A stretch of DNA of 64,000 nucleotides from Rhodoplanes sp. Z2-YC6860 (GTDB lineage: Bacteria; Pseudomonadota; Alphaproteobacteria; Rhizobiales; Xanthobacteraceae), in assembly GCF_001579845.1 (NCBI RefSeq), contig NZ_CP007440.1:6346029-6410028 (forward strand), read 5' to 3'. The notes under the pieces were generated by a model. The model searched no databases. It had not been told where the DNA came from and worked only from the letters and a program-made list of their open reading frames with translations. The translations under genes and the position numbers were made by a program. Of this stretch, positions 604-47,214 are shown piece after piece (position 1 is the first letter of the stretch; the number at the start of each line of letters is the position of its first letter).

Positions 604-1743
604 ATGAAGCGCACAATTTCTGCGATCGGTGTTGCTGCGGTTTTGTTGACCGCGAACTCGGCCTTTGCCGACATCAAGATCGGCGCGGTGCTGTCGGCGA
701 CCGGACCGGCATCCTTCCTCGGCGATCCCGAGAAGAAAACCATCGAGATGTACGTCGCCGACATCAACGCCAAGGGCGGCATCAACGGCCAGCAGATCAA
801 GCTGTTCGTCTATGACGACGGCGGCGATCCCAACCAGGCGCGCACCTTCGCGATCCGCGCGATCGAGGAAGACAAGGTCGACGCGCTGCTCGCGGGCTCG
901 ACCACGGCGACCACGATGCCGATCATCGCGCTCGCGGAGGAAAACCAGATTCCGCTCATTAACTTCGCTGGCGCCGTGCAAGCCGTGTCTCCGGTGAAGA
1001 AGTGGAACTTCAAGACGCCGCACACCGACCTGATGGCCTGCGAGAAGATCTTCGAGGACCTCAAGAAGCGCAATCTGACCAAGGTGGCGCTCATCTCCGG
1101 CGCTGATGCCTTCGGCAAGTCGATGCGCGACCAGTGCATGACCGTCACCGGCAAGTACGGCGTCGAGGTGCTGCACGAGGAGACCTATCAGCCACGCGAC
1201 AGCGACATGACGCCGCAACTCACCAACATCAAGGCCAAGGCCGGCGTGCAGGCCGTCATCAATCCGGGCTTCGGCCAGGGGCCGGCGATCGTGACGCGCA
1301 ACTACAAGCAGCTCGGCATCAATGTGCCGCTCTATCACGGCCATGGCGTCGCGACGAAGCAGTTCATCGAGCTGGCCACGCCCGCCGCGGCCGAAGGCGC
1401 GCGGCTGCCGGCCGCGGCGCTGCTCGTCGCCGAGAAGTTGCCCGACAGCGATCCACAGAAGAAGGTCGTCGTGTCCTACAAGCAGACCTACGAGAGCAAG
1501 ACCGGCCAGCCGGTCTCGGCCTTCGGCGGACACATGTATGACGGGCTGATGATCCTCGCCGGCGCGTTCGAGCGGGCCAAGAGCACCGACAAGACCAAGG
1601 TCCGCGACGAGATCGAGAAGACCAAGGGCTTCATTGGCACCGGTGGCGTGGTCAACATGAGCCCGACCGATCACCTGGGCCTCGATCTGACGGCCTTCCG
1701 CATGCTGGAAATCCGAAACGGCGACTGGACCCTGGCGCAGTAG
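604..1743 (+). CDS. Liv-type ABC transporter substrate-binding protein
   Basis: Periplasmic binding protein of the branched-chain amino acid / aromatic acid (HAAT) family, 379 residues. The start at 604 is chosen because GGGAGGGA precedes it and the product opens with a clean Sec signal peptide (MKRTISAIGVAAVLLTANSAFA, cleavage before DIKIG). An in-frame ATG at 562 would place extra residues ahead of the signal. The mature part has the family pattern IKIGAVLSATGPASFLG, a central ALLAGSTTATTMPI, and a VALISGADAFGKS segment at the start of the second lobe. It heads a coupled livHMGF operon. The ligand cannot be read from the sequence; the neighbouring CoA ligase and oxygenase suggest an aromatic acid. 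Confidence 0.9.
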   Translation: MKRTISAIGVAAVLLTANSAFADIKIGAVLSATGPASFLGDPEKKTIEMYVADINAKGGINGQQIKLFVYDDGGDPNQARTFAIRAIEEDKVDALLAGSTTATTMPIIALAEENQIPLINFAGAVQAVSPVKKWNFKTPHTDLMACEKIFEDLKKRNLTKVALISGADAFGKSMRDQCMTVTGKYGVEVLHEETYQPRDSDMTPQLTNIKAKAGVQAVINPGFGQGPAIVTRNYKQLGINVPLYHGHGVATKQFIELATPAAAEGARLPAAALLVAEKLPDSDPQKKVVVSYKQTYESKTGQPVSAFGGHMYDGLMILAGAFERAKSTDKTKVRDEIEKTKGFIGTGGVVNMSPTDHLGLDLTAFRMLEIRNGDWTLAQ

Positions 1744-1768
1744 CGGTTACCCTCGCCTCACAGGCACC

Positions 1769-2641
1769 ATGCCGGAATTCCTCCAGTTCCTGTTTTCCGG
1801 GCTCACGGTCGGCGCGATCTACGCGCTGATCGCGGTGGGCTTCACGCTGATCTACTCGTCCTCCGACGTCATCAACTTCGCCCAGGGCGAGTTCGTGATG
1901 ATCGGTGGCATGGGCACATTCTTCCTCGGCCTCGCCGGCGTGCCGCTGCCATTGGCGGCGGTGCTGGCTGTCGTTGCCGCCACGGCCGTGGGCCTGCTGC
2001 TGCATCGGCTTGCCATCGATCCCGCAAAGGACGCGTCCGCCGTGACGCTGATCATCATCACCATCGGCGCCTCGATCCTGATGCGCGGCATCGCCGGCGT
2101 GGTGTTCGACAAGAACTTCCACAGCCTGCCGCCCTTCATCGGCGCCGAGCCGTGGATCATCGGCGGGGCGGCGGTCCTGCCGCAAAGCGTTCTGGTGCTG
2201 ATCGGCACCGGCGTGATCGTTCTGCTGCTCTGGCTGTTCATGAGCCGCACCATGACCGGCAAGGCGATGATTGCGACCGCAGCCAATCGCCTCGCCGCGC
2301 GGCTCGTCGGCATCAACACTTCGCGGGTGGTGGCCACGGCCTTCGCGATCTCGGCCGCGATCGGTGCGATCGGCGGCATTCTGGTCACGCCGATTGCGCT
2401 CACGAGCTACGACGCCGGCACGCTGTTGGCGCTGAAGGGCTTTGCAGCCGCGATGCTCGGCGGCATCGGCAGTCCCATTGGCGCGGTCGTTGGCGGACTC
2501 ATCGTCGGCCTGCTCGAGGCGTTCGGCGCGGGCTACGTGTCCTCGGCCTACAAGGACGCCATCGCGTTCCTGGTGATCCTCGCCGTGCTGTTCGCCATGC
2601 CGCAGGGCCTGTTCGGGCGCGGCGCGATTGAACGGGTGTGA
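1769..2641 (+). CDS. livH: Liv-type ABC transporter permease, LivH family
   Basis: Inner-membrane permease of 290 residues with about eight hydrophobic segments. It opens with the LivH-type sequence FLQFLFSGLTVGAIYALIAVG and continues with VINFAQGEFVMIGG, which is highly characteristic of LivH. The segment GFAAAMLGGIGSPIGAVVGG near residues 225-245 matches the LivH cytoplasmic coupling region. It follows the binding protein by 25 bases, and its stop codon overlaps the first base of the livM start (TGATG), so translation is probably coupled. It forms a heterodimeric channel with LivM. Confidence 0.92.
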   Translation: MPEFLQFLFSGLTVGAIYALIAVGFTLIYSSSDVINFAQGEFVMIGGMGTFFLGLAGVPLPLAAVLAVVAATAVGLLLHRLAIDPAKDASAVTLIIITIGASILMRGIAGVVFDKNFHSLPPFIGAEPWIIGGAAVLPQSVLVLIGTGVIVLLLWLFMSRTMTGKAMIATAANRLAARLVGINTSRVVATAFAISAAIGAIGGILVTPIALTSYDAGTLLALKGFAAAMLGGIGSPIGAVVGGLIVGLLEAFGAGYVSSAYKDAIAFLVILAVLFAMPQGLFGRGAIERV

Positions 2642-3597
2642 TGGGCCACGCGCTCAAAAGACTGATCGAGAACCGTTACGCGGCGATTCTGACCATCGCT
2701 GTGGTCGTGATCGCTTTGCCTTTCGTCGTGCCGTCAACCTTCTACCTTCGCATCGCCACGCTCACCTTCATCTTCGCGCTCGCGGTGCTCGGCTTGAACC
2801 TCCTGATGGGATTCGCCGGCCAGGTCAGCCTCGGCCACGCCGGCTTCTTCGCCATCGGTGCCTACGCGGTCGCGATCGGGCCGACGCACCTTGGCGTGCC
2901 GGCCTGGGCTTCGCTCATCGCCGGCGCGGCGGTCGCGGCGCTCATCGCCTTCGTGGTCGGGCGGCCGATTCTGAAGCTCAAAGGCCATTACCTCGCAGTC
3001 GCCACGCTCGGCATGGGGCTGCTCATCGGCATGGTGTTCACCAATGAAGCGCGCTGGACCGGCGGCCCTGACGGCATGCCGGTGTCGCGTCTCGTTCTGT
3101 TCGGCTGGATCGCACGTGGCACACAGACCTGGTACTGGATTTCCGGCGTCACGCTCGCGCTCGGCGCCCTGCTCGCCACGAACCTGATCAACAGCCCGAC
3201 CGGACGCGCCTTCCGCGCCATCCACGACAGCGAAGTGGCGGCGGCCGTGCTGGGCGTCGACGTGGCGCGCTACAAGCTCATCGTGTTCGTTTTGTCCGCC
3301 GCTTACGCCGCGGTCGCGGGCGCCTATCTCGCGCTGTTCGACGGTCTTGTCACCCCGGCCACCGCCGGCTTTCTCCGCTCCATCGAATTCGTCACCATGG
3401 CGGTGCTCGGCGGCCTGGGCTCGGTGCTCGGTAGCGTCGTTGGCGCCGCGGTGCTGACCGTGCTGCCGCAGGTGCTGACGGTATTCCACGACTACGAGAC
3501 CATCGCGCTGGGCGCGCTCATGATCGCATTCATGATCTTTCTCCGGAGCGGCGTGGTGCCGGGCTTGGCCGCGCTCGTCGGGCGGCGGTCGTCATGA
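2641..3597 (+). CDS. livM: Liv-type ABC transporter permease, LivM family
   Basis: Second permease, 318 residues with about nine hydrophobic segments. LivM hallmarks are NLLMGFAGQVSLGHAGFFAIGAYA in the first third, RAIHDSEVAAAVLGVDVARYK (the EAA-like ATPase contact loop), and EFVTMAVLGGLGSVLGSVVG. The ATG at 2641 is used; a GTG lies one codon upstream. It overlaps livH by one base and livG by four bases (ATGA). There is no fused ATPase domain, unlike some LivM proteins. Confidence 0.92.
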   Translation: MGHALKRLIENRYAAILTIAVVVIALPFVVPSTFYLRIATLTFIFALAVLGLNLLMGFAGQVSLGHAGFFAIGAYAVAIGPTHLGVPAWASLIAGAAVAALIAFVVGRPILKLKGHYLAVATLGMGLLIGMVFTNEARWTGGPDGMPVSRLVLFGWIARGTQTWYWISGVTLALGALLATNLINSPTGRAFRAIHDSEVAAAVLGVDVARYKLIVFVLSAAYAAVAGAYLALFDGLVTPATAGFLRSIEFVTMAVLGGLGSVLGSVVGAAVLTVLPQVLTVFHDYETIALGALMIAFMIFLRSGVVPGLAALVGRRSS

Positions 3598-4382
3598 GCG
3601 CGCTCGCGGCCGAGCATCTGACGATCGAGTTCGGCGGCATCAAAGCCGTCAACGACGTATCGTTCGCCGTCGAGCCCGGCGAAATCTTTGCGATCATCGG
3701 CCCGAATGGCGCCGGCAAGACAACGCTGTTCAATCTCCTGTCGGGCATTTACGCGCCGCGCGGCGGCCGCGTGGTGCTTGGGGGCGACGACGTCGCAGGA
3801 ACGGCACCGTATCGGCTGGCGCAACTGGGCCTATCACGCACCTTCCAGAATTTGCAGATTTTCGGCCGCATGACCTCGGTCGAGAACGTCATGGTCGGGC
3901 GGCATCGGCACGAGAAGCGTAACGTGTTCGCGCATCTTCTGGCCTTACCCAGCGTAAGGCGGCAGAACAACGATACAAAGCAACAGGCCGAAGCTTTGCT
4001 GGAACGCGTGGGCCTCGCAAGCCTCGCGTCGCATCCCGCAAGCGCCCTGCCCTATGGCGCGCTGAAGCGGCTCGAAATCGCGCGTGCGCTTGCGAGCGAA
4101 CCCAAAGTGCTCCTCCTCGACGAGCCTGCGGCAGGATGCAATGCGGTCGAAGCCGCGGAGCTCACAACCATCATCCGCAGCATCGCGCGCGACGGCATCA
4201 CCGTGATCCTCGTCGAGCACAACATGCACATGGTGATGAACCTTTCCGATCGCATCCATGTGCTGGCAAACGGCCGTACGCTCGTTGAAGGCCGTGCCGC
4301 CGAAGTTCGTTCCAATCCTGCGGTCATCGAAGCCTATCTCGACACCCAAACCGCAGAGGGCGCTGCGCATGCTCGTCATTGA
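3594..4382 (+). CDS. livG: Liv-type ABC transporter ATPase, LivG family
   Basis: Cytoplasmic ATPase subunit of 262 residues. Walker A is GPNGAGKTTLFNLLSG. The Q-loop region RTFQNLQIF and the signature-type LPYGALKRLEIARAL follow, and Walker B is VLLLDEPAAG. The H-loop lies in ILVEHNMHMVM. The LPYG form in place of LSGG and the NLQIF element are typical of LivG. The ATG overlaps the livM stop (ATGA). The 3' end overlaps livF by 14 bases. Confidence 0.92.
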   Translation: MSALAAEHLTIEFGGIKAVNDVSFAVEPGEIFAIIGPNGAGKTTLFNLLSGIYAPRGGRVVLGGDDVAGTAPYRLAQLGLSRTFQNLQIFGRMTSVENVMVGRHRHEKRNVFAHLLALPSVRRQNNDTKQQAEALLERVGLASLASHPASALPYGALKRLEIARALASEPKVLLLDEPAAGCNAVEAAELTTIIRSIARDGITVILVEHNMHMVMNLSDRIHVLANGRTLVEGRAAEVRSNPAVIEAYLDTQTAEGAAHARH

Positions 4383-5070
4383 GAACCTGCGCAGCGGATA
4401 CGGCCGGATCGAGGCGCTGCACGGCGTTTCGCTCAACGTGGCGAAAGGCGAGATTGTCGCACTGGTCGGCGCCAACGGCGCCGGCAAGACAACCCTCATG
4501 CGAGCCATTTCCGGGGTGCAGCCGATTTTCGACGGCCGCATCCAGTTCAACGGCAAGCCGGTCGAACGGCTCGCGCCGCACGCCCGTGTCGTGCTCGGCA
4601 TCGCCCAGGTGCCCGAAGGCCGGCAGGTGTTCGCGCCGCTGTCGGTCGAGGACAACCTGCGACTCGGCGCCTGGACGCAAGCCACATCCAGCATCGAAGC
4701 AAGCCTCGCATCCGTCTACGCGCTGTTCCCGATGCTCGACGAGATGCGTAACATCCCGGCCGGCGCGTTGTCCGGCGGCCAGCAGCAGATGCTTGCGGTC
4801 GGCCGGGCTCTCATGGCAAAGCCCAGGCTTCTGCTGCTCGACGAGCCGTCGATGGGGCTGGCGCCCAAGCTTGTCGATCAGATTTTGAAAGCGGTGGCGG
4901 ACTTGCGCGGCACGGGACTGACGGTGCTTCTGGTCGAACAGAACGCAAGGGCGGCGCTGGCCATCGCCGACCGTGGTTATGTGATGGAAACCGGCCGGAT
5001 TGCGACCAGCGGCTCGGGCGCAGAGCTCCTCGCCGACAACCGGATTCAAGAAGCCTATCTCGGAGTTTGA
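4369..5070 (+). CDS. livF: Liv-type ABC transporter ATPase, LivF family
   Basis: Second ATPase of the importer, 233 residues. The start at ATG 4369 gives the normal LivF N-terminus MLVIENLRSGYGRIEALHGVS; a longer reading from 4258 would run far into livG. Walker A is GANGAGKTTLMRAISG, the signature is LSGGQQQMLAVGRAL, Walker B is LLLLDEPSMGLAP, and the H-loop is LLVEQNARAAL. VPEGRQVFAPLSVEDNL is a LivF hallmark. It is the last transport gene in the operon, and a thioesterase gene follows after 7 bases. Confidence 0.92.
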   Translation: MLVIENLRSGYGRIEALHGVSLNVAKGEIVALVGANGAGKTTLMRAISGVQPIFDGRIQFNGKPVERLAPHARVVLGIAQVPEGRQVFAPLSVEDNLRLGAWTQATSSIEASLASVYALFPMLDEMRNIPAGALSGGQQQMLAVGRALMAKPRLLLLDEPSMGLAPKLVDQILKAVADLRGTGLTVLLVEQNARAALAIADRGYVMETGRIATSGSGAELLADNRIQEAYLGV

Positions 5071-5077
5071 AACTGTA

Positions 5078-5491
5078 ATGAAAGCCACTCTGCAACCCGG
5101 CGTCACCAAAGTCCGGCAGATCACCGTCGATCGTCCGCGCACCATCGGCTTCATGGGCGAGGACGGGCGCGTCTATGGCACGCCGTACATGATCCTGGAC
5201 GTCGAGGAGACCTGCCGTCTTTTGATTGTGGATCACGCTGATGCCGGTGAGGATTCAGTCGGCATCGAGGTCAATGTGAAGCATCTCGCAGCCACACTTC
5301 CCAACATGACGGTCGAGATCAGCGTCAAGGTTGCGAGCGTTGAAGGCCGCAAGGTCACGTTCGAGATTCACGCCAAAGACGAGCTCGACACCATCAGCAC
5401 AGGCACGCATGCGCGCTTTGTCGTCGACAAAGCCAAGACCGCCGAGCGTCTGAAGGCCAAAGCCGCCAAGCTCGCCGCACGGAAAAAGTAG
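5078..5491 (+). CDS. Hotdog-fold acyl-CoA thioesterase, FlK-like
   Basis: Small cytoplasmic protein of 137 residues resembling the fluoroacetyl-CoA thioesterase (FlK) branch of the hotdog superfamily. FlK uses Thr, Glu and His (Thr42, Glu50, His76 in the Streptomyces enzyme; family knowledge). The matching stretch here reads YGTPYMILDVEETCR followed by VKHLAATLP, so all three residues appear present. The C-terminal ISTGTHARFVV is also family-typical. It follows livF by 7 bases, which makes it a likely operon member that hydrolyses or proofreads a CoA thioester made by the nearby ligase. The substrate is unknown and fluoroacetyl-CoA need not be it. The tail is Lys/Ala-rich. Confidence 0.75.
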   Translation: MKATLQPGVTKVRQITVDRPRTIGFMGEDGRVYGTPYMILDVEETCRLLIVDHADAGEDSVGIEVNVKHLAATLPNMTVEISVKVASVEGRKVTFEIHAKDELDTISTGTHARFVVDKAKTAERLKAKAAKLAARKK

Positions 5492-5492
5492 C

Positions 5493-6833
5493 TCAGGGCT
5501 TCCGGTTCGCCGCGTCCCAGTAGCGTTCCAGGTTGCCGATCAGCGCCGGGCTGAAGTGACAATAGGCCTGCTCGCGGGCGTAGACCGCGAAATACTCCCG
5601 GAACATCTCCAGCGGCTCCTGAGTGATGCGTAAGGCGCGGCGGTTCGACGCCGCACTGACCACGCCGGAGCTGGTCAGCCCCTTCACGACCCGCTCGATC
5701 GCGTCACCCATCGCGCCCGTCTCGACGATCTCGTCGCACACCAGCCGCCCCTCCGGGCTGTCGCATTCGAGCCGCTTCTCGTACTGGATCGCCTGGCGCG
5801 CAACACGGTCGCCAACCGCGCGCGGCAGCCGCATGTTGGCGGCGCCGGGGATGATGCCTTCCTTGCGCGCCGGCAGCGTGAGGTAGGCGGATTTCTCGGC
5901 GAGCACGTAATCGACCGCCAGCAGGATCTGGCAGTGGCCGCCGATCGCGAAGGCTTCGACCGCCGCGATAAACGGCTTCTCGATCGTCTGGCCGCCGAAC
6001 TCGTCGGGCGGCGCGTCATCCGGCAGCGCCAGCCCGCGATAGAGCTTGTTGACGTAGCCCAAGTCACGTTCGAGGTACCAGAGAAACGGAATCCGGCCGT
6101 GATAGAGATGCGTCAGGTTGATGCCCGCGCCGAACACATGCCGATTCTTGTACTTTGGGTGCTCGACCGGCATGCCGCGCAGCACGGCGACTTCGATGGC
6201 GTCATCGAGCAGCGCCAGATCGACGCAAGTCTCCATGCCGGCGAGCGTGGTCTGATCCTCGGCGTTGAGAAACCGCGGATTGCGGAAGGTGATGATCGCG
6301 GCCTTGCCGCGCCGCTCGATCGAGCCTCCCGGCAATTCGAGCCGGCCTTCCTTGATGAATTGCGGCAGCCGCGCCTTCGCATCTTCGAGCGGCAGCAGCA
6401 TGGCATGGAGAAGATGACGGCCGGCGCGCTCGCTCCGCAGCACCGCCGAGACGAACAGCCCCTGATCGATTTCCAACCCGGCCTTCTGGCTTTGGCGCAA
6501 CCCCTCCTCTGCCGCGAGGCTCTCCCGCGACGGCACCAATCCGGGAAATTTTTGCGCGGCCGCTGCAACCAGATCGACGACACGAACAAAGCGCGTGCGC
6601 TTGCCGGTCAGTTCGTCATAGACCGCGTCGACATGCTGCCGGAGAAACTTCACCCGCGACGGGCGTCCCTGTTCCAGGATTGCGCGTGCGGTCTTGCGAT
6701 CCGCGTCCTGCCGCTGCGACGGCGGCGGCAATTGGCCCAGAAGCCGCGACTGCTGCGCCCAGTATTTCTCAAAAGCCGCGCGGTCCGCCGTGAAGTCGCC
6801 CGACACCGCGGGTTCTGGAGAATTCTGAGTCAT
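5493..6833 (-). CDS. DpgC-like crotonase-fold oxygenase ((dihydroxyphenyl)acetyl-CoA dioxygenase family)
   Basis: A 446-residue protein, far longer than ordinary enoyl-CoA hydratases (about 260) and close to DpgC (about 430). The first 170 or so residues form a helical domain. The crotonase part follows, with oxyanion elements in FGAGINLTHLY and AFAIGGHCQILLAVDYVLAE. YLTLPARKEGIIPGAANMRL, ECDSPEGRLVCDEIVE and LTSSGVVSAASNRRA closely match DpgC as I know it. DpgC is the cofactor- and metal-free enzyme that oxidises 3,5-dihydroxyphenylacetyl-CoA to the arylglyoxylate in glycopeptide biosynthesis. Here it sits with a PaaK-type ligase (divergent, 91 bases away), a thioesterase (convergent, 1-base gap) and an importer, with no polyketide synthase in view. 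A catabolic role is inferred. Confidence 0.82.
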   Translation of the reverse strand: MTQNSPEPAVSGDFTADRAAFEKYWAQQSRLLGQLPPPSQRQDADRKTARAILEQGRPSRVKFLRQHVDAVYDELTGKRTRFVRVVDLVAAAAQKFPGLVPSRESLAAEEGLRQSQKAGLEIDQGLFVSAVLRSERAGRHLLHAMLLPLEDAKARLPQFIKEGRLELPGGSIERRGKAAIITFRNPRFLNAEDQTTLAGMETCVDLALLDDAIEVAVLRGMPVEHPKYKNRHVFGAGINLTHLYHGRIPFLWYLERDLGYVNKLYRGLALPDDAPPDEFGGQTIEKPFIAAVEAFAIGGHCQILLAVDYVLAEKSAYLTLPARKEGIIPGAANMRLPRAVGDRVARQAIQYEKRLECDSPEGRLVCDEIVETGAMGDAIERVVKGLTSSGVVSAASNRRALRITQEPLEMFREYFAVYAREQAYCHFSPALIGNLERYWDAANRKP

Positions 6834-6865
6834 CGTTTCGCTCCCGGCGCCGGCATCAAACTGGG

Positions 6866-6895
6866 TTCACGCCGACTGTGTGACTGATACTATAG
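6866..6895 (+). promoter_or_regulatory. Candidate sigma-70 type promoter of the CoA ligase gene
   Basis: In the 91-base divergent gap, TTCACG at 6866-6871 could serve as -35 and TACTAT or CTATAG at 6888-6895 as -10, with a spacer of 16 to 18 bases. Transcription would start near 6902, just ahead of the ATG at 6925. This is a motif match by eye, with no experimental basis. Confidence 0.3.
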
Positions 6896-6924
6896 CCCCG
6901 TCGATTTCCGGGTGCGACCTTGGC

Positions 6925-8250
6925 ATGAACCATCAAGCCTCTTCCGATACGCTCGCCGACATGTTCGACCGCTCGGCCGAAACCATGCCGCGCGCCGATC
7001 TCGCCGCACTGCAATTGTCGCGGCTGAAGCAGACGCTGCACAATGCCTACGCCAATGTGCCGCACGTGCGCGCCAAATGGGATGCAGCAGGCGTCCGGCC
7101 GGAGCATCTCAAATCGCTGGCCGACATTGCGCGCTTTCCCTTCACCACCAAGGCCGACATGCGCGACACCTATCCGTTCGGCCTGTTCGCGGTGCCGCGC
7201 GAACAGGTGGTGCGGCTGCATGCCTCGTCAGGCACCACCGGCAAGGCCACGGTGGTCGGCTACACGCAGAACGACATCGACCTGTGGTCAAATCTCATGG
7301 CGCGCTGCATCGCCTGCGCCGGCGGGCGGCCGGGCGATGTGCTGCACAACGCCTACGGTTATGGCCTGTTCACCGGTGGGCTCGGCGTGCACTACGGCGC
7401 TGAGCTCTTGGGCTGCACCGTCGTGCCGGTGTCCGGCGGGCTGACCGAGCGCCAGGTGACGCTTCTTCAGGATTTTGGTGCGCGCATCATCTGCGCGACG
7501 CCGTCCTATGCGCTGAACATCGCCGAAGTGGCCGAAGCGATGGGCGTCGACGTTCGCAAGCTGCCGGTCCAGATCGGAATCTTCGGCGCCGAGCCCTGGA
7601 GCAACGAGATGCGCCACGATCTCGAAGCGCGGCTTGGGATCGCTGCGGTCGATCTCTATGGGCTCTCGGAAATCATCGGGCCGGGTGTTGCGGTCGAATG
7701 CGGCGTCGCCCGCAACGGATTGCATGGCTGGGAGGATCACTTCCTGTTCGAGGTGATTGACCCCAAGACGCTCGAACCGGTGAAACCCGGCGACGCCGGC
7801 GAGCTGGTGATGACCACGCTCACCAAGGAAGCGCTCCCGATGGTGCGCTACCGCAGCCGCGACATCACGCGGCTCACGGACGAGCCCTGCGCCTGCGGCC
7901 GTACGCACCGGCGCATTCTGCGTGTCACCGGCCGCGACGACGACATGATGATCATCCGCGGCGTCAACGTCTATCCATCCCAGATCGAGGCGCTGCTGAT
8001 CGGGCTGCCCGACATCTCGCCGCACTATCAGATCGTGCTGATGCGCGACGGCGCGCTCGACTCGATGACGGTCGAAATTGAGGTCGCGCCCGGCGCGCCT
8101 CACGACGACGCGCAGAAATGCACCGATATCTCCGGCCGCATCAAGTCGCGACTCGGCGTGAGCTGCACCATCGCCCTGAAAGCCTCCGGCGAGCTGCCGC
8201 GCTCGCAAGGCAAGGCGGTTCGCGTCAAAGACCTGCGCAAGAAGCCCTAA
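6925..8250 (+). CDS. paaK: Phenylacetate-CoA ligase family (PaaK-type) aryl-CoA synthetase
   Basis: Adenylate-forming ligase of 441 residues, the usual PaaK length. It activates an aryl-acetate or benzoate-type acid with ATP and CoA. The P-loop is LHASSGTTGKATVVGYT. GIFGAEPWSNEMR, VDLYGLSEIIGPGVA, GELVMTTLTKEALPMVRYRSRDIT, and the hinge/C-terminal RVTGRDDDMMIIRGVNVYPSQIE are all PaaK signatures. An acceptor-Lys region appears as ELPRSQGKAVRV. A GTG at 6880 would add 15 residues; ATG 6925 is preferred on family length. No other paa genes lie nearby. The partner DpgC-like gene suggests a hydroxylated phenylacetate substrate (inference). The stop overlaps the convergent RND gene by 4 bases. Confidence 0.88.
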   Translation: MNHQASSDTLADMFDRSAETMPRADLAALQLSRLKQTLHNAYANVPHVRAKWDAAGVRPEHLKSLADIARFPFTTKADMRDTYPFGLFAVPREQVVRLHASSGTTGKATVVGYTQNDIDLWSNLMARCIACAGGRPGDVLHNAYGYGLFTGGLGVHYGAELLGCTVVPVSGGLTERQVTLLQDFGARIICATPSYALNIAEVAEAMGVDVRKLPVQIGIFGAEPWSNEMRHDLEARLGIAAVDLYGLSEIIGPGVAVECGVARNGLHGWEDHFLFEVIDPKTLEPVKPGDAGELVMTTLTKEALPMVRYRSRDITRLTDEPCACGRTHRRILRVTGRDDDMMIIRGVNVYPSQIEALLIGLPDISPHYQIVLMRDGALDSMTVEIEVAPGAPHDDAQKCTDISGRIKSRLGVSCTIALKASGELPRSQGKAVRVKDLRKKP

Positions 8251-18563: not shown

Positions 18564-20660
18564 ATGGAATTAAAGGGAACCAATCCGGTTCCCGGGCCGT
18601 TGACCGGGCGTCGATCCATTTCCAGCCCCAGCGGTGACGACGTGACGCGGACGCTTACTGCATCCCATCCGCTTGCTGCATCCCATCATCGCACGGTGAC
18701 GGTCCCCCATTTGCCTGAACTGGCGCCCAACGATCCGACCGGGCCGCGTTTTCTTGTCGAGGACGTCTATCCGAGCATCGACGGTGGCCGCTATCCGCTG
18801 AAGCGGATCGCGGGTGAGCCCATCGAGGTCTGGGCCGACATCCTGCGCGAGGGCCATGACCAGCTCGCCGCGGAGTTGCTCTGGCGCAATGAGAACGGCC
18901 CGGTGTGGCAGCGCACCCGAATGGCGTTCCACAGCAACGACCGTTGGCGCGGAAGCTTCACGCCGCCAGAGCCGGGCCGGTATCTGTTCGAGATCGAGGC
19001 GTGGACCGATCAGTTTGCCACCTGGCGGCACGGACTCATTCTGAAGCGGGACGCCGGGCAGGACATTTCGGTCGACGCTCTGGAAGGCCGCGAACTGCTC
19101 GAAGACCTGCGACCGACCGATGCCAACGCCAAGCGCATTATCAACAACGTCAAGCGCGATTTCGATCGCACGCGTAACGTCGCGTTGTTGCTTGACGACG
19201 AGCTGGCGGAGGCGGTCGCCGCCGGCGACCCGCGGAGCGACATGATCCGGAGTCTGTCGATTCCAGTCACAGTCGAGCGCGATAGGGCACGTGCCAGTGC
19301 CTGGTACGAGTTGATGCCGCGGAGCCAGTCGCCCGTACCGGGCCGCCACGGCACGTTCGGCGATGCGATGGCACGATTGCCCGAGATCGCCGCGATGGGT
19401 TTCGACGTCGTTTATCTGACGCCGATCCACCCGATCGGCCAGATCAACCGCAAGGGCCGCAACAATTCGCTGAAGGCCGCTCCGAACGATCCCGGCAGTC
19501 CCTACGCGATCGGCAGCGCCGAAGGCGGCCACGACGCGATCCATCCGCAGCTCGGCACCTTCGACGACTTCGAGAGATTCGTCGCAGCGTGCCGTCAGCA
19601 CAACATGGAGGTGGCGCTCGATTTTGCCATCCAGTGCGCGCCTGACCATCCGTGGCTGAAACAGCATCCCGAATGGTTCAAGAAACGGCCCGATGGCAGC
19701 ATCAAATACGCCGAAAATCCGCCGAAGAAATACGAAGACATCGTCAACGTGGATTTCTACTGCGCTGACCGCGTCGCGCTGTGGCAGGCGTTGCGCGACG
19801 TGGTGCTGTTCTGGGTCGAAAAGGGCGTGAAAATCTTCCGCGTCGATAATCCGCACACCAAACCGTTCCCATTCTGGGAATGGCTCATCCATGAAGTGCA
19901 GGAGCGCGATCCCGACGTGCTGTTCCTGGCGGAAGCCTTCTCGCGGCCGAAGATCATGAAGGGGCTCGCGAAACTCGGCTTCACGCAGTCCTACACTTAT
20001 TTTACATGGCGCACCCACAAGTGGGAGTTCGAGCAGTATCTGAGCGAACTGACGCGCTATCCCGAGCGTGACTACTTCCGGCCGAACTTCTTCGTCAACA
20101 CGCCGGACATCCTGCCGGTGCACCTGCAGAAGGGTGAGCCCTGGATGTTCAAATCGCGCTTCGCGCTCGCGCTGACGCTGTCGTCGAACTACGGCATGTA
20201 CAGCGGCTACGAGCTTCTGGAACACGAGCCGATTCCGGGGCGCGAGGAGTACATCAACTCCGAGAAATACGAACTGAAATTCCGCGACTGGAACCGGCCC
20301 GGCAATATCAAGGACTACATCACACGGCTCAACCGCATCCGCCGCGAGAACCCCGCGCTGCTGCAGACCGCCGATCTGCGCTTTGCCCAGGTCGACGATG
20401 GCGAGGTGATCGGCTTCGTCAAGGAATCGGTCAAGCACGACAATGCGGTCGCTTGCGCGATTGCGCTCTCCGGCCAAGGCCCGCGGAGCCTCTGGTTTCA
20501 CTTCGGCGACATCACCATCGGCCAGCCGGACGACCGGCATCCGGTGCGATCGATCGTCAACCTCGTCACCGGCGAACGGCACGCGCTGGAATGGGGCGGC
20601 GTCAGGCTCACCATGGACCCGGCCGCCGATCCCGCGCTGCTGTTCCGCTGTGAAATTTGA
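18564..20660 (+). CDS. glgE: GlgE, alpha-1,4-glucan:maltose-1-phosphate maltosyltransferase (GH13_3)
   Basis: About 698 residues. GlgE lengthens alpha-1,4-glucan by two glucose units using maltose-1-phosphate. The N-terminal domain starts near PRFLVEDVYPSIDGGRYPLKRIAGE, a GlgE signature. The GH13 core has GFDVVYLTPIHPIG and IGSAEGGHDAIHPQLG, the nucleophile Asp in KIFRVDNPHTKPFPFW, and the acid Glu in VLFLAEAFSRP. FTQSYTYFTWR is also GlgE-typical. The true start is uncertain: ATG 18564 lies in CATATG back to back with a minus-strand ATG and has no good ribosome binding site; GTG 18642 is possible. It leads a six-gene co-directional operon. Confidence 0.93.
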   Translation: MELKGTNPVPGPLTGRRSISSPSGDDVTRTLTASHPLAASHHRTVTVPHLPELAPNDPTGPRFLVEDVYPSIDGGRYPLKRIAGEPIEVWADILREGHDQLAAELLWRNENGPVWQRTRMAFHSNDRWRGSFTPPEPGRYLFEIEAWTDQFATWRHGLILKRDAGQDISVDALEGRELLEDLRPTDANAKRIINNVKRDFDRTRNVALLLDDELAEAVAAGDPRSDMIRSLSIPVTVERDRARASAWYELMPRSQSPVPGRHGTFGDAMARLPEIAAMGFDVVYLTPIHPIGQINRKGRNNSLKAAPNDPGSPYAIGSAEGGHDAIHPQLGTFDDFERFVAACRQHNMEVALDFAIQCAPDHPWLKQHPEWFKKRPDGSIKYAENPPKKYEDIVNVDFYCADRVALWQALRDVVLFWVEKGVKIFRVDNPHTKPFPFWEWLIHEVQERDPDVLFLAEAFSRPKIMKGLAKLGFTQSYTYFTWRTHKWEFEQYLSELTRYPERDYFRPNFFVNTPDILPVHLQKGEPWMFKSRFALALTLSSNYGMYSGYELLEHEPIPGREEYINSEKYELKFRDWNRPGNIKDYITRLNRIRRENPALLQTADLRFAQVDDGEVIGFVKESVKHDNAVACAIALSGQGPRSLWFHFGDITIGQPDDRHPVRSIVNLVTGERHALEWGGVRLTMDPAADPALLFRCEI

Positions 20661-20669
20661 GAGCGTGTC

Positions 20670-23600
20670 GTGAACGTCCTGCCGCAGATCGATGTGCAGC
20701 CCAAGGCTCAGAACGAGCTCTGGTTCAAAGACGCCGTCATCTATCAGCTCCACGTCAAAGCCTTTGCCGACAGCAACAATGACGGAATCGGCGATTTCGC
20801 AGGGCTGACCGAGCGGCTCGACTATCTGCAGGACCTCGGCGTCAACACGCTGTGGCTGTTGCCGTTCTATCCGAGCCCCGGCCGCGACGACGGCTACGAC
20901 ATCGCCGACTACCGGCGCATCAACCGCGATTTCGGCACGCTGCGCGATTTTCGCCGCTTCATGAACGAGGCGCACCGCCGCGATCTGCGGGTGATCACCG
21001 AGTTGGTCATCAACCACACCTCCGACCAGCATCCGTGGTTCAAACGCGCGCGAAGGAGCGGACCGCACACTGATGCACGCAACTGGTACGTCTGGAGCGA
21101 CAACGACCAGAAATATTCCGGCACGCGGATCATCTTCAGCGATACCGAGAAGTCGAACTGGAGCTGGGACCCGCAGGCCAATGCCTACTACTGGCACCGC
21201 TTCTTTTCGCATCAGCCGGATCTGAATTTCGACAATCCACGGGTGCTGTGGGCCGTGATCCAGGTGATGCGGCGCTGGCTCGACATGGGCGTCGACGGGT
21301 TCCGGCTCGACGCGATCCCTTATCTCTGCGAGCGCGAGGGCACCAACAACGAGAATCTCCCCGAGACGCATGCGATCATCAAACAGATCCGCCGCGAGCT
21401 CGATTCCTACGCGCCCGGAAAGCTGCTGCTCGCCGAGGCCAACCAGTGGCCCGAAGACGTCGCAGCCTATTTCGGCGATGGCGACGAATGCCAGATGGCC
21501 TACCATTTTCCGTTGATGCCGCGCATCTACATGGCGATCGCCCAGGAAGACCGCTTCCCGATCGCCGACATCCTGCGGCAGACGCCGGACATTCCGGCGA
21601 ACTGCCAGTGGGCGCTGTTCCTGCGCAACCACGACGAGCTGACATTGGAAATGGTCACCGACGTGGAGCGCGACTATCTCTGGTCGACCTACGCCAACGA
21701 TCCACGCGCCCGCATCAATCTCGGCATCCGTCGGCGGCTCGCGTCGTTGATGGACAACGATCGCCGCAAGATCGAGCTGATGAACTCGCTGCTGTTCTCG
21801 CTGCCCGGTACGCCGATCATCTATTACGGCGACGAGATCGGCATGGGTGACAACATCTATCTCGGCGACCGCAACGGCGTCCGTACGCCGATGCAGTGGA
21901 CTTCGGACCGCAACGCCGGCTTCTCGCGCTGCGATCCGGCGAGGCTCTATCTGCCGGTGATCATGGACGCGGTCTATGGCCACCAGTCGGTCAACGTGGA
22001 GGCGCAGCAGCGCAGCCCGTCCTCGCTGCTCAACTGGCACAAGCGCCTGATCGGCGTGCGGCGCTCCACTCAGGCCTTCAGCCGCGGCTCTCTCACCTTC
22101 GTGCGCCCCGCCAATCGCACCGTGCTGGGCTACATCCGCTCGTACGAGAACGACACCGTGCTGTGCGTGGCAAACCTTTCCCGTTCGGCGCAGTCGGCGC
22201 TCTTCGATCTGCGGCCATGGAAAGGCCGGATACCGATGGAGATGCTTGGCCGCAGCACCTTCCCTCGCATCGGCGACGAGCCTTACGCCATCACGCTCGC
22301 GCCTTATGGCTTCTTCTGGTTCCTGCTCACCGACGCGCCACAGGAAACCAAGCCCGCGCCGATTTTGCGGGAACACACCACACTGGTCTGGACTGCGGGT
22401 TGGAATTCCCTTCTGGCGAGCCGCGAACGCAATGCGCTAGAGAACGACGTGCTGCCGGCCTTCCTGCGCGAGCGCCGCTGGTTCGCCGAGAAAGCTCACG
22501 GCGTCGAGGTGGCCAAGCTTGAAGCGCTCATCCCGGTCGAGCGCGAAAACCTGTCGGCAGGTCTCGCACTGGTGAGGGTGGCTTCCTCGCGCGGCGCCAC
22601 TTCGCTCTATCAGGTGCCGCTGACCCTGCGATGGGCGCGACCCGACCGGCTCGATGCTTCGATGACACCCAATGTGCTCGCTGCCATTCGCCGTGGCCCA
22701 CGGGAGGGCGCGCTGGTCGATGCCGCAGCAGACAAGGACGCCATCACCGTGTTGCTGACGGCCGTCCATGACAGCCACGCGATCGAGGAAGGCAGGTATC
22801 GGATCGAGTTCACTCCGACCAGCGTCTTCAAAGACGCGCCACAGCCGACGATCGAGAAGGCCACCGCGCTCAATCGCGAACAGTCCAACACCACGGTGAT
22901 CGCGGACCGCGATTATGTCGTCAAGGTGCTGCGCAAGGTCAACGAAGGCATCCATCCCGAAATCGAGATGGGACGCTTCCTGATCGAGCACACCAGCTTC
23001 CGTAATGTGCCGGACCTGCTCGGCTCCGTCGAACTGGTTGAAGGCAGCGCGCGCAGCGCGCTTGCCGTGGTGCATCGCTTCGTCGAAAACCAGGGCGACG
23101 CCTGGACCGTGACCGGCGCCTTTCTCGATCGCTACATCGACGACCAGCGGGTGCTGACGGCCGCCAACGCTGAAGAAGATATGGAGCTGACGTCCTATCT
23201 CCAGCGCATCCGGCAGCTCGGCCGCCGCACCGGCGAATTCCAGACGGCGCTCGCGAGCCGTCCCGACGTTCCCGACTTTGCGCCCGAGCCGATCCGTCCC
23301 GAGGATGTCTCGGCCTGGACCGAGCGGCTCGTCGAGCGCTCCGGCCACGTGCTCGATCTCCTGACTTCAAAACGGGCGAGCCTCGAAGAGGCCGTCACGG
23401 CCGACGTCGACCGGCTGCTGCAGGTGCGCCCGGCGATCGAAGCGCATATCCGCTCATTGCTGCCGGGCTGTGCCAACGCCTCAAAAGCGCGCCATCACGG
23501 CGACTTCCATCTGGGCCAGGTGCTGATCGTCAAGGATGACGCCTTCATCCTCGATCTCGAGGGTGAGCCCGGCCGCTCGTTGGACGAGCGCCGGCAGAAG

Positions 23601-23950
23601 GTTCCGGCGGCGCGTGACATCGCCGGCATGCTCCGCTCGATCGACTATTCGACCACTGCGGCGCTCGCCAACGCGACCAACCTCACCGCCGAGGAGCGCG
23701 CAATCCTGAAACCCAAGCTCGACATCTGGCGGCAGAAGGCGACGGAGGAGTTCTGGAACGCCTGCCGGCAGACCGCCGATGCAGCGCTGTGGCCTGCAGA
23801 CGCCACGGAGGCGCGCGATCTCCTGGAATTCTTCCTTCTCGAGAAGGCGTTCTACGAGATGGAATACGAGCTGATGAACCGTCCGGCGTGGTTGCACGTT
23901 CCCCTTGAAGGGACGTTACGCATCCTTGCCCATCACGGTGTCGTGCAACC

Positions 23951-23954
<4 letters not shown>
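20670..23954 (+). CDS. treS: Trehalose synthase / maltokinase fusion (TreS-Mak)
   Basis: A 1094-residue two-domain enzyme. Residues 1 to about 560 are TreS (GH13_16), which interconverts trehalose and maltose: [21 protein letters not shown], nucleophile [11 protein letters not shown], acid [13 protein letters not shown], and [13 protein letters not shown]. The C-terminal half is the aminoglycoside-kinase-like maltokinase (Mak/Pep2), which makes maltose-1-phosphate with [14 protein letters not shown] (catalytic Asp) and [12 protein letters not shown] (metal-binding Asp). The start is GTG at 20670, 9 bases after glgE. The fusion feeds GlgE directly with its donor. The stop overlaps the glgB start (ATGA). 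Confidence 0.95.
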
Positions 23955-26107
<2,153 letters not shown>

Positions 26108-28192
26108 CCAGCGGATTTCCGCCGGCTCGCCGCATCCGCTTGGCGCGACCTGGGATGGCCGCGGCACCAACTTCGCGCTGTTCTCGTCGACCGCCGAGAA
26201 GGTGGAGTTGTGCCTGTTCGACCGCACCGGCCGCACCGAGTTGGAGCGCCTTCCGCTGCCGGAACGCACCGACGACGTCTGGCACGGCTACGTGCTGTCC
26301 GCCCGGCCGGGCCAGCTTTACGGCTATCGTGTGCACGGGCCGTACGATCCCGAACGCGGCTTCCGCTTCAACCCGAACAAGCTGCTGATCGATCCATACA
26401 CCAGGCAGTTCGGCGGCGCCTATCACTGGACCGACGCGCATCTGCCCTATCGCATCGGACACAAACGCGAGGACCTCGCCATCGACCGCCGCGACAACGC
26501 GCGCTCGATGATCAAATCCGCGGTGGTCGATCCGGCTCACACCTGGGGCCGTGACATCCATCCCAGCACAGCGTGGGAAGACACCTTTATCTACGAGGCT
26601 CATATCAAAGGCGTGACGCAGCTTCGGGAGGACGTGCCCAAGGAGCTGCGCGGCACGTACCGAGGTCTCGCCGCGCCTGCGATGATCGAACATCTGCGCA
26701 AGCTTGGCGTCACCGCGCTCGAGCTCCTGCCGATCCACTCCTTCATGGACGAGCGCCATCTCGTCGAGCACGGATTGAAGAACTATTGGGGCTACAACAC
26801 GCTGAGCTTTTTCGCTCTGGAGCAGCGTTACGACAACGAGAACGTCCAGAGCGCCTTCCGCTCCACGGTGTCCGAGCTGCACAGCGCCGGCATCGAGGTG
26901 ATCCTCGACGTGGTCTACAACCACACCTGCGAGGGCAATCACCTCGGCCCGACCCATTGCTACCGCGGCATCGACAACACCGCGTATTATTGGCTGGTGC
27001 CCGACAAGCCGCGCTTTTACGAGAATTACACCGGCACTGGCAACGCGCTGAATCTGACGCATCCGCGCGTGTTGCAGATGGTGATGGACTCGCTGCGGCA
27101 CTGGGTCGAGGTCTTTCACGTCGACGGCTTCCGCTTCGATCTCGCATCGACACTCGGCCGCACGCCGGGCTTCGACAGGCACGCGGCATTCTTCGCGGCC
27201 GTGCGTCAGGACCCGGTGCTGGCCAACGTCAAGATGATCGCCGAGCCATGGGACATCGGCCTCGGCGGCTATCAGGTCGGCGGCTTTCCGCCGGGCTGGT
27301 CGGAGTGGAACGACGTCTATCGCAAGACCATGCGGCGCTACTGGCGCGGCGAAGGCAATCTCCTCGGCGAACTTGCCAGCGCGCTGACCGGCTCGGCCCC
27401 GCAATACCGGCACGATGGCCGCGCACCGCAGGCCAGCATCAATCATGTCGTCGTGCACGACGGCTTCACGTTGAACGACCTCGTCAGCTATGAGCACAAG
27501 CACAACGAGGCGAACAAGGAGGACAATCGCGACGGCTCCGACGACAACAACAGCCTCAATTGCGGCGTCGAGGGCCCGACCGACGATCCCAAGATTCTCG
27601 CCTGCCGCAGGCTGCTGCGTCGCAACCAGCTTGCATCTCTGCTTCTCGCCATGGGTGTCCCACTGATGCTGGCCGGCGACGAAGTCGCCAACACGCAAGG
27701 CGGCAACAACAACGCCTATTGCCAGGACGACGAGATCGGCTGGGTGAACTGGTCGAAACTCGGCAGCGAAGATGATGACACCGGATTCGTCGGCGCGATG
27801 GCCGAGTTGAGGCAGCGCTTCCCGCAGATTCGGACGCGGCACTGGCTCGAAGGCAAAAATGGCGACGGCAGCCACGACGTGATCTGGCTGCGCCCCGACG
27901 CGGCCGAGATGAACGAGGAGGATTGGAAATTCCCTGAAGGGCGATTTCTCGCTTATGTGCTGGCGGCGCCCAAAGCCAGCGGCGAGAAGGCCGGCGGCGA
28001 GCCGCTCTACCTCGTGTTCAACGGCGCGCACGATGCCATCGCGGTCACCTTGCCAAAGCTTCCGGGCATCGCGAAATGGTCGCGCGTGCTCAGCACGGCC
28101 GACAACTCGGTGCTGAAGGAAGACGTGAGTGAGGTGCCTGGCGCAAAGCTCACCTCGCCCGCGACATCGATCCTGGCTTTCGCCGGCAAGCC

Positions 28193-29968
28193 ATGACCAG
28201 GGATCGACGCTTTGGACCGGCGATCGGCGCCGACGGCGTGACGTTCCGGCTGTGGGCGCCGGACGCAAAGAGCGTCGCACTCAAGATGCATGGCAAGGAA
28301 GAAGACATCCGTCCGATGCAGCGCGACAGCGAAGGCTGGTTCTCGATCGTGGCGCCGGATGCCAGGCCTGGCACGCGCTACCGCTTCCGCATCGACGACG
28401 AGATCGACGTGCCTGACCCTGCGTCGGGCTTCCAGCCGGAAGACGTCAATGGGCCCAGCGAAGTGATCGACCCGGCCTTCGGCTGGCAGGCCGCCGGCTG
28501 GAAGGGCCGCCCGTGGCATGAATGCGTGTTCCTGGAGATGCACACCGGCACCTTTACGACGGACGGCACGTTCCGCGCCGCGATCGACAAGCTCGACCAT
28601 GTGGTCGAGGCAGGCTTCACGGCGATCGAGCTGATGCCCGTCGCCGATTTCGCCGGCCGCTGGAACTGGGGCTATGACGGCGTACTGCTGTTTGCCCCCG
28701 ACAGCGCCTATGGCCGGCCTGACGATCTCAAGGCCTTGATCGATGCCGCCCATGGCAAGGGCCTGATGGTGTTTCTCGACGTGGTCTACAACCACTTCGG
28801 CCCCGAGGGAAATTATCTCGGCCGCTATGCGCCGCAGTTTTTCACGCCGGCGAACACACCCTGGGGCAGCGCGATCGATTACGGAAATCCGCTGGTGCGG
28901 CGTTTCGCAATCGAGAATGCCCTCTATTGGCTCGACGAGTTTCGCTTCGATGGGCTGCGCCTCGACGCGGTCCACGCCATCGTCGAGCCGGGCCGCGGAC
29001 TTCTCCTGCGCAAACTGAGCGAGGCCGCCGGTGCATTGATCGCGGAAAGCGGCCGGCACATTCACCTGGTCCTGGAGAACGATGCCAATCAGGCGAGCCT
29101 GCTCGATCCCGTCGTCGATCCTCCTGTCGGCAAGTATCGCGCGCAGTGGAATGACGACTATCACCACGCGTTTCACGTCGCGCTGACAGGTGAAACCACC
29201 AGCTACTACGCCGACTATCGCGATCCCGCGCCCTACATCGCGCGAGTGCTGGCACAGGGCTTCGCCTATCAGGGCGAGCCGTCGCCGCATCGCGGCGGCG
29301 AGCCGCGCGGCGAAACCACCGCCAAGTTGCCGCTCACGGCGTTCGTCAACTTCCTGCAAAACCACGACCAGATCGGCAACCGCGCGCTCGGCGAACGATT
29401 GACCGGGCTGGCAACGCCCGAGGCCCTTGAGGCTGCGCTCGCCATCACGTTGCTCGCGCCGGGCCCGCCGCTGATGTTCATGGGCGACGAATGGGCGGCG
29501 CGCGAGCCGTTTCCGTTCTTCTGCGATTTCAAGGGCGATCTGGCACAGGCGGTGCGCGAGGGCCGGCGGCGGGAATTTTCTGAAGCTTATGAAAAGTATC
29601 GCGACGAGGTGCCTGATCCTCTGGCGGAAGAAACAGTACGGCTCGCGACCCTCGATTGGAGCGTGCGGTCACAGTCCGGGCACACCGCACGCCTGACATT
29701 CGTGAAAGACCTCCTCGGGGCGCGCAAGGCTCACATCACACCGCGGCTGCCGCACTTGATGGACGGTCACGGCACGGCGCGTTTCGAGGACGGCGTCCTC
29801 ATCGCTCAATGGCGCATACGTCCCGCCGAGAGGCTGTCGATGCTCGCGAACTTCAGCTTGCAAGCGCGCGAGCGGCCTCACGCCATGTCTGGCCACGCCG
29901 TGTGGGGCGGCCCGCCACCCGATGAACTTCCGCCGTGGTCGGTGTTCGTATGGATCGGGCCGAGCTGA
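28193..29968 (+). CDS. treZ: Malto-oligosyltrehalose trehalohydrolase
   Basis: A 591-residue GH13_10 enzyme that frees trehalose from maltooligosyl trehalose. The N-terminal FGPAIGADGVTFRLWAPDAKSVAL is TreZ-like. The barrel has GFTAIELMPVADFAG and WNWGYDGVLLFAPDSAYG, the nucleophile DGLRLDAVHAI, the acid Glu in IHLVLENDANQASLL, and NFLQNHDQIGNRALG. It overlaps glgX by 4 bases. Its TGA shares one base with the downstream treY start (TGATG). Confidence 0.95.
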   Translation: MTRDRRFGPAIGADGVTFRLWAPDAKSVALKMHGKEEDIRPMQRDSEGWFSIVAPDARPGTRYRFRIDDEIDVPDPASGFQPEDVNGPSEVIDPAFGWQAAGWKGRPWHECVFLEMHTGTFTTDGTFRAAIDKLDHVVEAGFTAIELMPVADFAGRWNWGYDGVLLFAPDSAYGRPDDLKALIDAAHGKGLMVFLDVVYNHFGPEGNYLGRYAPQFFTPANTPWGSAIDYGNPLVRRFAIENALYWLDEFRFDGLRLDAVHAIVEPGRGLLLRKLSEAAGALIAESGRHIHLVLENDANQASLLDPVVDPPVGKYRAQWNDDYHHAFHVALTGETTSYYADYRDPAPYIARVLAQGFAYQGEPSPHRGGEPRGETTAKLPLTAFVNFLQNHDQIGNRALGERLTGLATPEALEAALAITLLAPGPPLMFMGDEWAAREPFPFFCDFKGDLAQAVREGRRREFSEAYEKYRDEVPDPLAEETVRLATLDWSVRSQSGHTARLTFVKDLLGARKAHITPRLPHLMDGHGTARFEDGVLIAQWRIRPAERLSMLANFSLQARERPHAMSGHAVWGGPPPDELPPWSVFVWIGPS

Positions 29969-38993: not shown

Positions 38994-39110
38994 CCGAATA
39001 GCCGGGACAGCCGCCGGCTTTGAGCTACAATCCCCTGTCGGTGTTTGGAACTTGCGGTCGCGCCTGCAGCGCCCGCCGCCAGTTCCGATGGCGTCATTGG
39101 GGAGACAGGC

Positions 39111-40103: not shown

Positions 40104-40621
40104 TCGCACGGCTGCTCCGTTATTCGAGCACCGCGGCGGAGGCTATCTCGGCCGCAGCCTTCGCGGCGATGTTCCTGTTGTTCCTCGCCGGCATCGCGGC
40201 GCGCTACCTGTTCGGCAAGCCCATCATCTGGGCCGACGAAGTCATCATGGTGATCTTCCTGTGGCTCGTCTTCCTCACCGAGGCCTTTGTCATCACCGAG
40301 CGCGAGCAGGTCACCTTCGACGGCATCTATGACCTGGTCGGCGAGCGCGGGCGCCGCATCATCCAGGCGCTGGGCGCGCTTCTCGTTGCCGTGATGTTCC
40401 TCGTGGCGCTGCCGACCGTCTACGACTTCGTGCGCTTTCTCTGGCGCGAGCGCACCAACGCGCTGCAATGGCGGCTCGACATCGTCTACTCCTGCTTCGT
40501 GGTGTTCTGGATCTCGGTGATCGTTCGCGCCACGCTCAAGCTCGTGCGGCTCGCCTGCCCGAACTGGCGCGACGAGGTCGCCGTGGTGCGCGCCGACGAG
40601 CGCGCCAACGTGCTGGGCTGA
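40100..40621 (+). CDS. dctQ: TRAP transporter small permease, DctQ family
   Basis: A 173-residue membrane protein with four transmembrane helices, the DctQ number. RYLFGKPIIWADEVIMVIFLWLVFL is the conserved DctQ region with the W-x-DE motif. It starts at a GTG overlapping the dctP stop and ends 12 bases before dctM. It forms the inner-membrane complex with DctM. Confidence 0.92.
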   Translation: MIARLLRYSSTAAEAISAAAFAAMFLLFLAGIAARYLFGKPIIWADEVIMVIFLWLVFLTEAFVITEREQVTFDGIYDLVGERGRRIIQALGALLVAVMFLVALPTVYDFVRFLWRERTNALQWRLDIVYSCFVVFWISVIVRATLKLVRLACPNWRDEVAVVRADERANVLG

Positions 40622-40633
40622 GGGGCCGCCGAC

Positions 40634-44765: not shown

Positions 44766-44796
44766 CGGTTGAGGTTTCCACTCTTGAATTGCATCG

Positions 44797-47205: not shown

Positions 47206-47214
47206 TGAGCGCTC

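Follow-up and report, generated by a model that had tools for sequence, protein, structure and literature searches.

A DpgC-like gene beside a PaaK-type CoA ligase in Rhodoplanes suggests a catabolic alpha-oxidation of arylacetates

Introduction

DpgC of glycopeptide antibiotic synthesis acts on 3,5-dihydroxyphenylacetyl-coenzyme A (CoA), according to PMC3849588. A similar enzyme, the 'Phg dioxygenase' PglA of L-phenylglycine formation for pristinamycin and virginiamycin, is reported to oxidise phenylacetyl-CoA, in a pathway worded there as suggested (PMC7089894). Here we describe a DpgC-like gene in a 64,000-nucleotide stretch of Rhodoplanes sp. Z2-YC6860 (assembly GCF_001579845.1; NZ_CP007440.1, positions 6,346,029 to 6,410,028 of the forward strand), referred to as the window. 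At positions 604-8250 this gene lies together with a Liv-type importer, an FlK-like thioesterase and a PaaK-type CoA ligase, as an earlier note on this DNA had stated, and all eight genes of the module gave strong family matches (Pfam, NCBIfam and solved structures). We suggest, with a probability of about 0.6, that the module serves the catabolic alpha-oxidation of an arylacetate, most likely phenylacetate, in place of the ring epoxidase PaaABCE.

Phenylacetyl-CoA holds a central place in the catabolism of aromatic compounds. In the usual phenylacetate pathway, activation by PaaK is followed by PaaABCE, of which PaaA is a ring epoxidase subunit. The window module shares the activation by PaaK, but its genome has a predicted alpha-oxidation enzyme instead and gave no PaaA match (TIGR02156, E ≤ 1e-50). 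In the anaerobic Pad route of Aromatoleum, phenylacetyl-CoA is converted via phenylglyoxylate to benzoyl-CoA, the first step being catalysed by an O2-independent oxidoreductase; the route proposed here would have the same intermediates. Among the openly licensed papers listed by our searches, we found no catabolic DpgC route, in agreement with the earlier note, which knew of no described catabolic pathway with this gene set. The main text of a 2026 survey of phenylacetate pathways has neither DpgC nor phenylglyoxylate, and PaaA is weighed there as a genomic marker of phenylacetate catabolism (PMC13186573).

Results and Discussion

The dpgC gene (5493-6833, minus strand) is transcribed away from paaK and converges with flK, the stops of dpgC and flK being 1 base apart. 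Its product is predicted to be a DpgC/PglA-like, cofactor-free arylacetyl-CoA dioxygenase. It aligns with solved DpgC (5kag/2np9) over residues 20-436 of 446, the N-terminal region included (E about 1e-99, 338 bits), and matches the NCBIfam DpgC model NF042432 over residues 29-438 with 434.8 bits, below the curated cut-off of 530. The ligase matches TIGR02155 with 603.2 bits, below the cut-off of 646.3, and because both curated cut-offs are missed we use the names 'DpgC-like' and 'PaaK-type'. We placed the active-site positions by alignment with 5kag. I235 and G296 of DpgC, which we take to form the oxyanion hole, and E189, R254 and Q299, presumably the other active-site residues, correspond to I238, G299, E192, R256 and Q302 in the window protein, so that all five are kept. 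Among the 86 non-actinobacterial rows of the alignment, E is kept in 86, I in 83, R in 85, G in 85 and Q in 86; the seven actinobacterial DpgC/PglA-like rows have E, R, G and Q in 7/7 and I in 6/7. Since E, R and Q are common to the DpgC and PglA types, they do not tell the substrate.

That the protein is a crotonase-family hydratase, isomerase or thioesterase making no use of O2 appears improbable. Pfam calls only ECH_1, the DpgC cut-off is missed, and C301 and R323, each kept in 85 of the 86 non-actinobacterial rows and marks of that clade, are different in the actinobacterial enzymes. However, the ordinary crotonases among the matches listed start at residue 172 at the earliest, and mostly at about 283, whereas this match covers nearly the full length, and the near-invariance of E192, R256 and Q302 in both groups also argues for a dioxygenase.

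A phylogeny against glycopeptide DpgC, a check named in the earlier note, separated the 86 non-actinobacterial rows from the seven actinobacterial ones with a support of 99; this tree of 93 rows is a quick, unrooted one with SH-aLRT values only and long branches for loci L035, L148, L147 and L153. The window protein pairs with its counterpart in L036 (support 100) within a clade of 15 rows (97). By its sequence, the window protein belongs to a sister clade of DpgC and PglA. It resembles DpgC in its full-length homology, its aligned active site and the implied supply of an arylacetyl-CoA, but differs from it in clade, in falling below the cut-off and in being accompanied by a CoA ligase and an importer rather than by DpgA/DpgB and an aminotransferase.

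The paaK gene lies at 6925-8250 on the plus strand, with an alternative GTG start at 6880; if the start is 6925, the intergenic region between dpgC and paaK (6834-6924) is 91 bases long. Its product contains AMP-binding and AMP-binding_C_2 (Pfam) and matches the solved phenylacetate-CoA ligase 2y4o over nearly its full length (E 5e-155). One tblastn scan of named genomes (E ≤ 1e-3) gave 360 relatives of the DpgC-like protein, and we retained the best 80; together with L034 and L035 these make 82 loci, mostly from metagenome-assembled genomes and many truncated at the end of a contig. In 44/82 loci, PaaK is no more than 3.5 kb from DpgC (midpoints): upstream and co-directional in 34, upstream and divergent as in the window in eight, and downstream in two. 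The number expected by chance is 0.16, at the window genome's rate of one full PaaK per 8.19 Mb and with 1.32 Mb scanned, although the 44 loci are not 44 independent events because they are related. With L043, where the distance is 3.9 kb, PaaK is found in 45/82 loci. The pair thus occurs in at least three arrangements, and in L035, L102 and L108 a FadD-type ligase lies 1.6-2.0 kb from DpgC. The wider surroundings differ among loci. Carriers in culture include Bauldia litoralis ATCC 35022 (L058) and Hyphomicrobium sp. CS1BSMeth3 (L053). The conserved unit is a CoA ligase plus DpgC, with FlK in close kin, and the importer is swapped (Liv or TRAP, that is, tripartite ATP-independent periplasmic).

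A catabolic rather than biosynthetic logic, as the earlier note had proposed, is indicated because DpgC is partnered most often by a CoA ligase (PaaK in 45/82 loci and a FadD-type ligase in three) and because importers of differing classes adjoin it. It is very improbable that the module makes an arylglycine precursor of the glycopeptide or streptogramin kind. The DpgC/PglA-type enzymes with a described role that we encountered are biosynthetic. L147 and L153, on actinobacterial plasmid records, hold dpgA-dpgB-dpgC clusters. L151 and L152, also on actinobacterial plasmids, have a DpgC-like gene followed by genes for pyruvate dehydrogenase (PDH) alpha/beta subunits, an alpha/beta hydrolase, MbtH and an aminotransferase, between genes for non-ribosomal peptide synthetases (NRPS); from this gene order, we infer that their DpgC-like genes are PglA. 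But the immediate neighbours of the window dpgC are liv, flK and paaK genes, by Pfam an importer, a thioesterase and a CoA ligase, with no type III polyketide synthase (PKS) gene dpgA and no dpgB beside them, the rest of the genome not having been searched for DpgA. The absence of a PKS noted earlier agrees with the window gene list, in which by eye no NRPS or PKS is seen, and none is found among the scanned neighbour proteins. PglA is likewise DpgC-like and has a thioesterase partner, PglD; its supply is by the PDH-like PglB/C and it feeds an aminotransferase, while the window has a PaaK-type ligase instead and no aminotransferase was seen. The report on PglA and the pgl-like clusters of L151 and L152 make it plausible that some members of the DpgC family act on phenylacetyl-CoA without ring substituents.

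We then compared the distribution of DpgC with those of PaaA and BoxB across a single set of 391 genomes from the family, inferred to be Xanthobacteraceae. DpgC was found in 66, PaaA in 199 and BoxB in 262. PaaA occurs in 4/66 genomes with DpgC and in 195/325 without it (Fisher p 3e-17). This near-exclusion of the two genes is the strongest of the new results. Outside a genus denoted g2, the figures are 1/63 and 92/about 221 (p about 1e-11). Genomes with DpgC are not short of aromatic genes: outside g2, BoxB is present in 47/63 of them and in 108/about 221 of those without DpgC (p 3e-4). Among the 155 BoxB-containing genomes outside g2, 47 have DpgC, 55 have PaaA and none has both (p 9e-12). 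All these p values are too small because the genomes are related. In the seven non-g2 genera holding both genes, one overlap was seen against 8.5 expected at minimum genus sizes, which are minimum counts made by hand from the listed genomes (P 7e-6). The window genome itself has a BoxB match (907.6 bits), and its single full-length PaaK match is the window gene, the next scoring 119.5 bits.

In the proposed pathway, the Liv system would import an arylacetate and the ligase, judging from its family, would couple it to CoA. The DpgC-like enzyme would then remove an alpha proton, keep the resulting enolate in the oxyanion hole of the crotonase fold, add O2 without a metal or cofactor, and release CoA and an aryl glyoxylate. 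This enolate/O2 mechanism is that of DpgC, and for the window protein it is predicted from the residues. Phenylglyoxylate might be decarboxylated to benzaldehyde and benzoate, or undergo oxidative decarboxylation to benzoyl-CoA, and either product could enter the box pathway. FlK may clear stalled arylacetyl-CoA, or arylglyoxylyl-CoA as said of PglD, as an editing enzyme. The module would stand in for the PaaABCE ring epoxidase where genomes lack it.

The earlier note had named a hydroxyphenylacetate as the substrate. The arylacetate part of this proposal is retained, but unsubstituted phenylacetate is favoured over hydroxyphenylacetate because of the near-exclusion of PaaA, the sole full-length PaaK and the precedent of PglA. 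The same chemistry on another natural substrate, a hydroxyphenylacetate or indole-3-acetate, is rather less probable. It would suit the two PobA-like genes of the window genome (521.6 and 512.8 bits, though under the cut-off of 538.7), and also the IorA/IorB-type genes upstream in L101 and L102, which fit indolepyruvate as well as phenylpyruvate. It would further suit the genes for PobA, a 4-hydroxybenzoate 3-monooxygenase, adjoining DpgC in L069 and L084 (645.2 and 643.9 bits, over the same cut-off), but these are just two of the 82 loci and mutually close relatives, and the near-exclusion of PaaA best matches phenylacetyl-CoA.

In L069 (8622-12645) and L084 (8616-12696), both from Afifellaceae, PaaK and DpgC are co-directional and the 4-hydroxybenzoate 3-monooxygenase gene is convergent just behind them, which hints at a hydroxylated substrate there. 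We rejected this hydroxylase as a general partner, since, of the 82 loci and the window, these two loci alone have the L069 type.

Several results weigh against the catabolic alpha-oxidation of phenylacetate in place of PaaABCE. In addition to the missed cut-offs of the DpgC and PaaK models, 37/82 loci show no PaaK near DpgC, several of them ended by contig ends, and in seven loci an acyl-CoA dehydrogenase gene is divergent from DpgC in place of PaaK. In g2, all three genomes with DpgC also carry PaaA, so there is no mutual exclusion there; their DpgC is of a 45-46% identical type. PaaA is nearly universal in g2 (106 of at least 107 genomes), and the near-exclusion of DpgC and PaaA is partly phylogenetic. 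The deficit of overlaps in the seven other genera weakens when genus sizes are scaled, with 6.5 expected at 1.3x (P 0.001), 5.35 at 1.6x (0.009) and 4.25 at 2x (0.04). Finally, the window cluster has no downstream decarboxylase, and thiamine diphosphate (ThDP)-type genes lie near DpgC in 7/82 loci (L039, L065, L067, L068, L097, L101 and L102) against five by chance.

A wider proposal, for which we see about even odds from the sequences, is that PaaK with a cofactor-free DpgC-family dioxygenase constitutes an additional aerobic phenylacetate route in many alpha- and betaproteobacteria, which would run through phenylglyoxylate in place of PaaABCE, use only O2 and deliver its product to the box pathway of benzoyl-CoA. 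On this view most of the family would be catabolic, with DpgC and PglA as its biosynthetic branch. If this is true, genomes that lack PaaA but have a DpgC-like enzyme are misjudged as non-users of phenylacetate, the 360 candidate relatives form a natural set for O2 use by the crotonase fold without metal or flavin, and the module would hint at the origin of the antibiotic enzymes.

The g2 type of DpgC is seen in L035, where a gene 44-45% identical lies beside the FadD-type ligase. By eye, this locus also has an enoyl-CoA hydratase, a short-chain dehydrogenase/reductase, a fusion of a Baeyer-Villiger-type monooxygenase and an esterase, LivK and an iron alcohol dehydrogenase. It may represent a different DpgC pathway, present in genomes that have kept PaaA as well. 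L034/L005 had been considered as the same architecture as the window and were rejected, since the DpgC neighbour there is an acyl-CoA dehydrogenase.

The importer and thioesterase genes form a tightly packed run on the plus strand in the order livK, livH, livM, livG, livF and flK. The likely starts were taken from the open reading frames (ORFs): 604 for LivK, 2641 for LivM, 4366 for LivF, 5078 for FlK and 6925 (or GTG 6880) for PaaK. By Pfam, all five Liv components are present and the system is complete: a periplasmic binding protein of the LivK type with a signal peptide (604-1743; Peripla_BP_6, 186.9 bits), two permeases of the LivH type (1769-2641; BPD_transp_2, 132.5 bits) and LivM type (2641-3597; BPD_transp_2, 149.1 bits), and two ATPases of the LivG type (3594-4382; ABC_tran and BCA_ABC_TP_C) and LivF type (4366-5070; ABC_tran). 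The ATPases fall below the cut-offs of the LivG model (278 bits, cut-off 362) and LivF model (248 bits, cut-off 441). The best solved relatives of LivK are 3sg0/4dqd, whose ligands are presumably benzoylformate and phenylpyruvate, followed by 7ylt, 3uk0 and others, including 4jb0 further off. The last of these is ferulate-bound (PMC3610893).

The FlK-family hot-dog acyl-CoA thioesterase gene (5078-5491) ends the liv run. Its product matches PF22636 with 106.5 bits against a gathering score of 27, and solved FlK with an E value of 1.5e-14. Its T, E and H align with what we take to be the catalytic triad of FlK and are kept, but Asp stands at the position of Phe36, presumably the lid residue. 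Thus, the protein shares the family and the triad with the fluoroacetyl-CoA thioesterase FlK, but specificity for fluoroacetyl-CoA is unlikely. FlK is found near DpgC in 10/82 loci, eight in the window clade (at two different positions) and the others L102 and L108.

The co-occurrence of all five families proposed earlier is borne out only in part. L102, a betaproteobacterial metagenome-assembled genome, combines all five, its ligase being of another type. On one strand, it carries genes for an IorA-like protein (280.6 bits, below the cut-off), IorB (567.3 bits, over 348), a FadD-type ligase, DpgC, FlK, LivK, LivH, a fused LivM-LivG and LivF. On the other hand, L036, the nearest relative, has the same upp and RND (resistance-nodulation-division) borders as the window and a TRAP importer in the place of Liv (its DctP assigned by cluster only). 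It is unlikely, though only a little less probable than another arylacetate as substrate, that the Liv operon and FlK are mere neighbours unrelated to DpgC and PaaK. Genomes of this kind often have Liv systems, and the swap in L036 fits that explanation. But flK closes the liv run, its product is 60-74% identical to the DpgC-adjacent FlK of eight loci of the same clade, and in L102 the genes for Liv, FlK, a ligase and DpgC share a strand. In L101, LivK/LivH/LivM are 63/60/50% identical to those of the window and lie about 7-10 kb before DpgC. They are followed there by IorA (704.2 bits, passing the cut-off of 650.9), IorB and an alpha subunit (the latter two by eye), then TPP_enzyme_C, a POR subunit, an amidohydrolase and DpgC.

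A ThDP decarboxylase as a fixed partner of DpgC was rejected, its count near DpgC being barely above chance, and it remains a lead only. The best benzoylformate decarboxylase match of the window genome (424.4 bits) misses the cut-off of 493 and was set aside. In L039, a ThDP enzyme gene directly follows paaK (1-base gap, longest ORFs), the sole locus among nine of its genus with that neighbour. An 86% identical relative is encoded in the window genome about 41 kb before dpgC, where the ThDP enzyme, a VOC protein and a flavin adenine dinucleotide (FAD)-dependent hydroxylase are consecutive (L166, 1001-4284). Within the genus, the VOC protein is next to this ThDP enzyme in 8/9 loci, and the FAD monooxygenase is also present in 7/9. 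The L039-type enzyme is below every NCBIfam cut-off shown and occurs in 22/391 genomes, 12 of them with DpgC (p 3e-5; three genera only).

Other ThDP-related genes are found in the window at 43630-44840 on the minus strand, as two small adjoining ORFs. The one at 43630-44241 contains TPP_enzyme_C (48.2 bits) and the other has no Pfam match; the pair resembles a split two-subunit ThDP decarboxylase (the second ORF by eye). Beside them at 44797-47952, also on the minus strand, are genes for a molybdopterin hydroxylase large subunit (MoCoBD_1/2) and a class II aldolase-family protein, a probable second catabolic cluster. A complete TRAP transporter (DctP, DctQ and DctM; 39045-41932, plus strand) lies near this cluster.

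At the borders of the module, upp lies 5' of the liv run, the window beginning inside it, and beyond paaK is an RND efflux operon (assigned by eye) including a TetR gene (Pfam). Large ORFs at 18564-32712 on the plus strand look glycogen/trehalose-like, by eye and from their first residues only.

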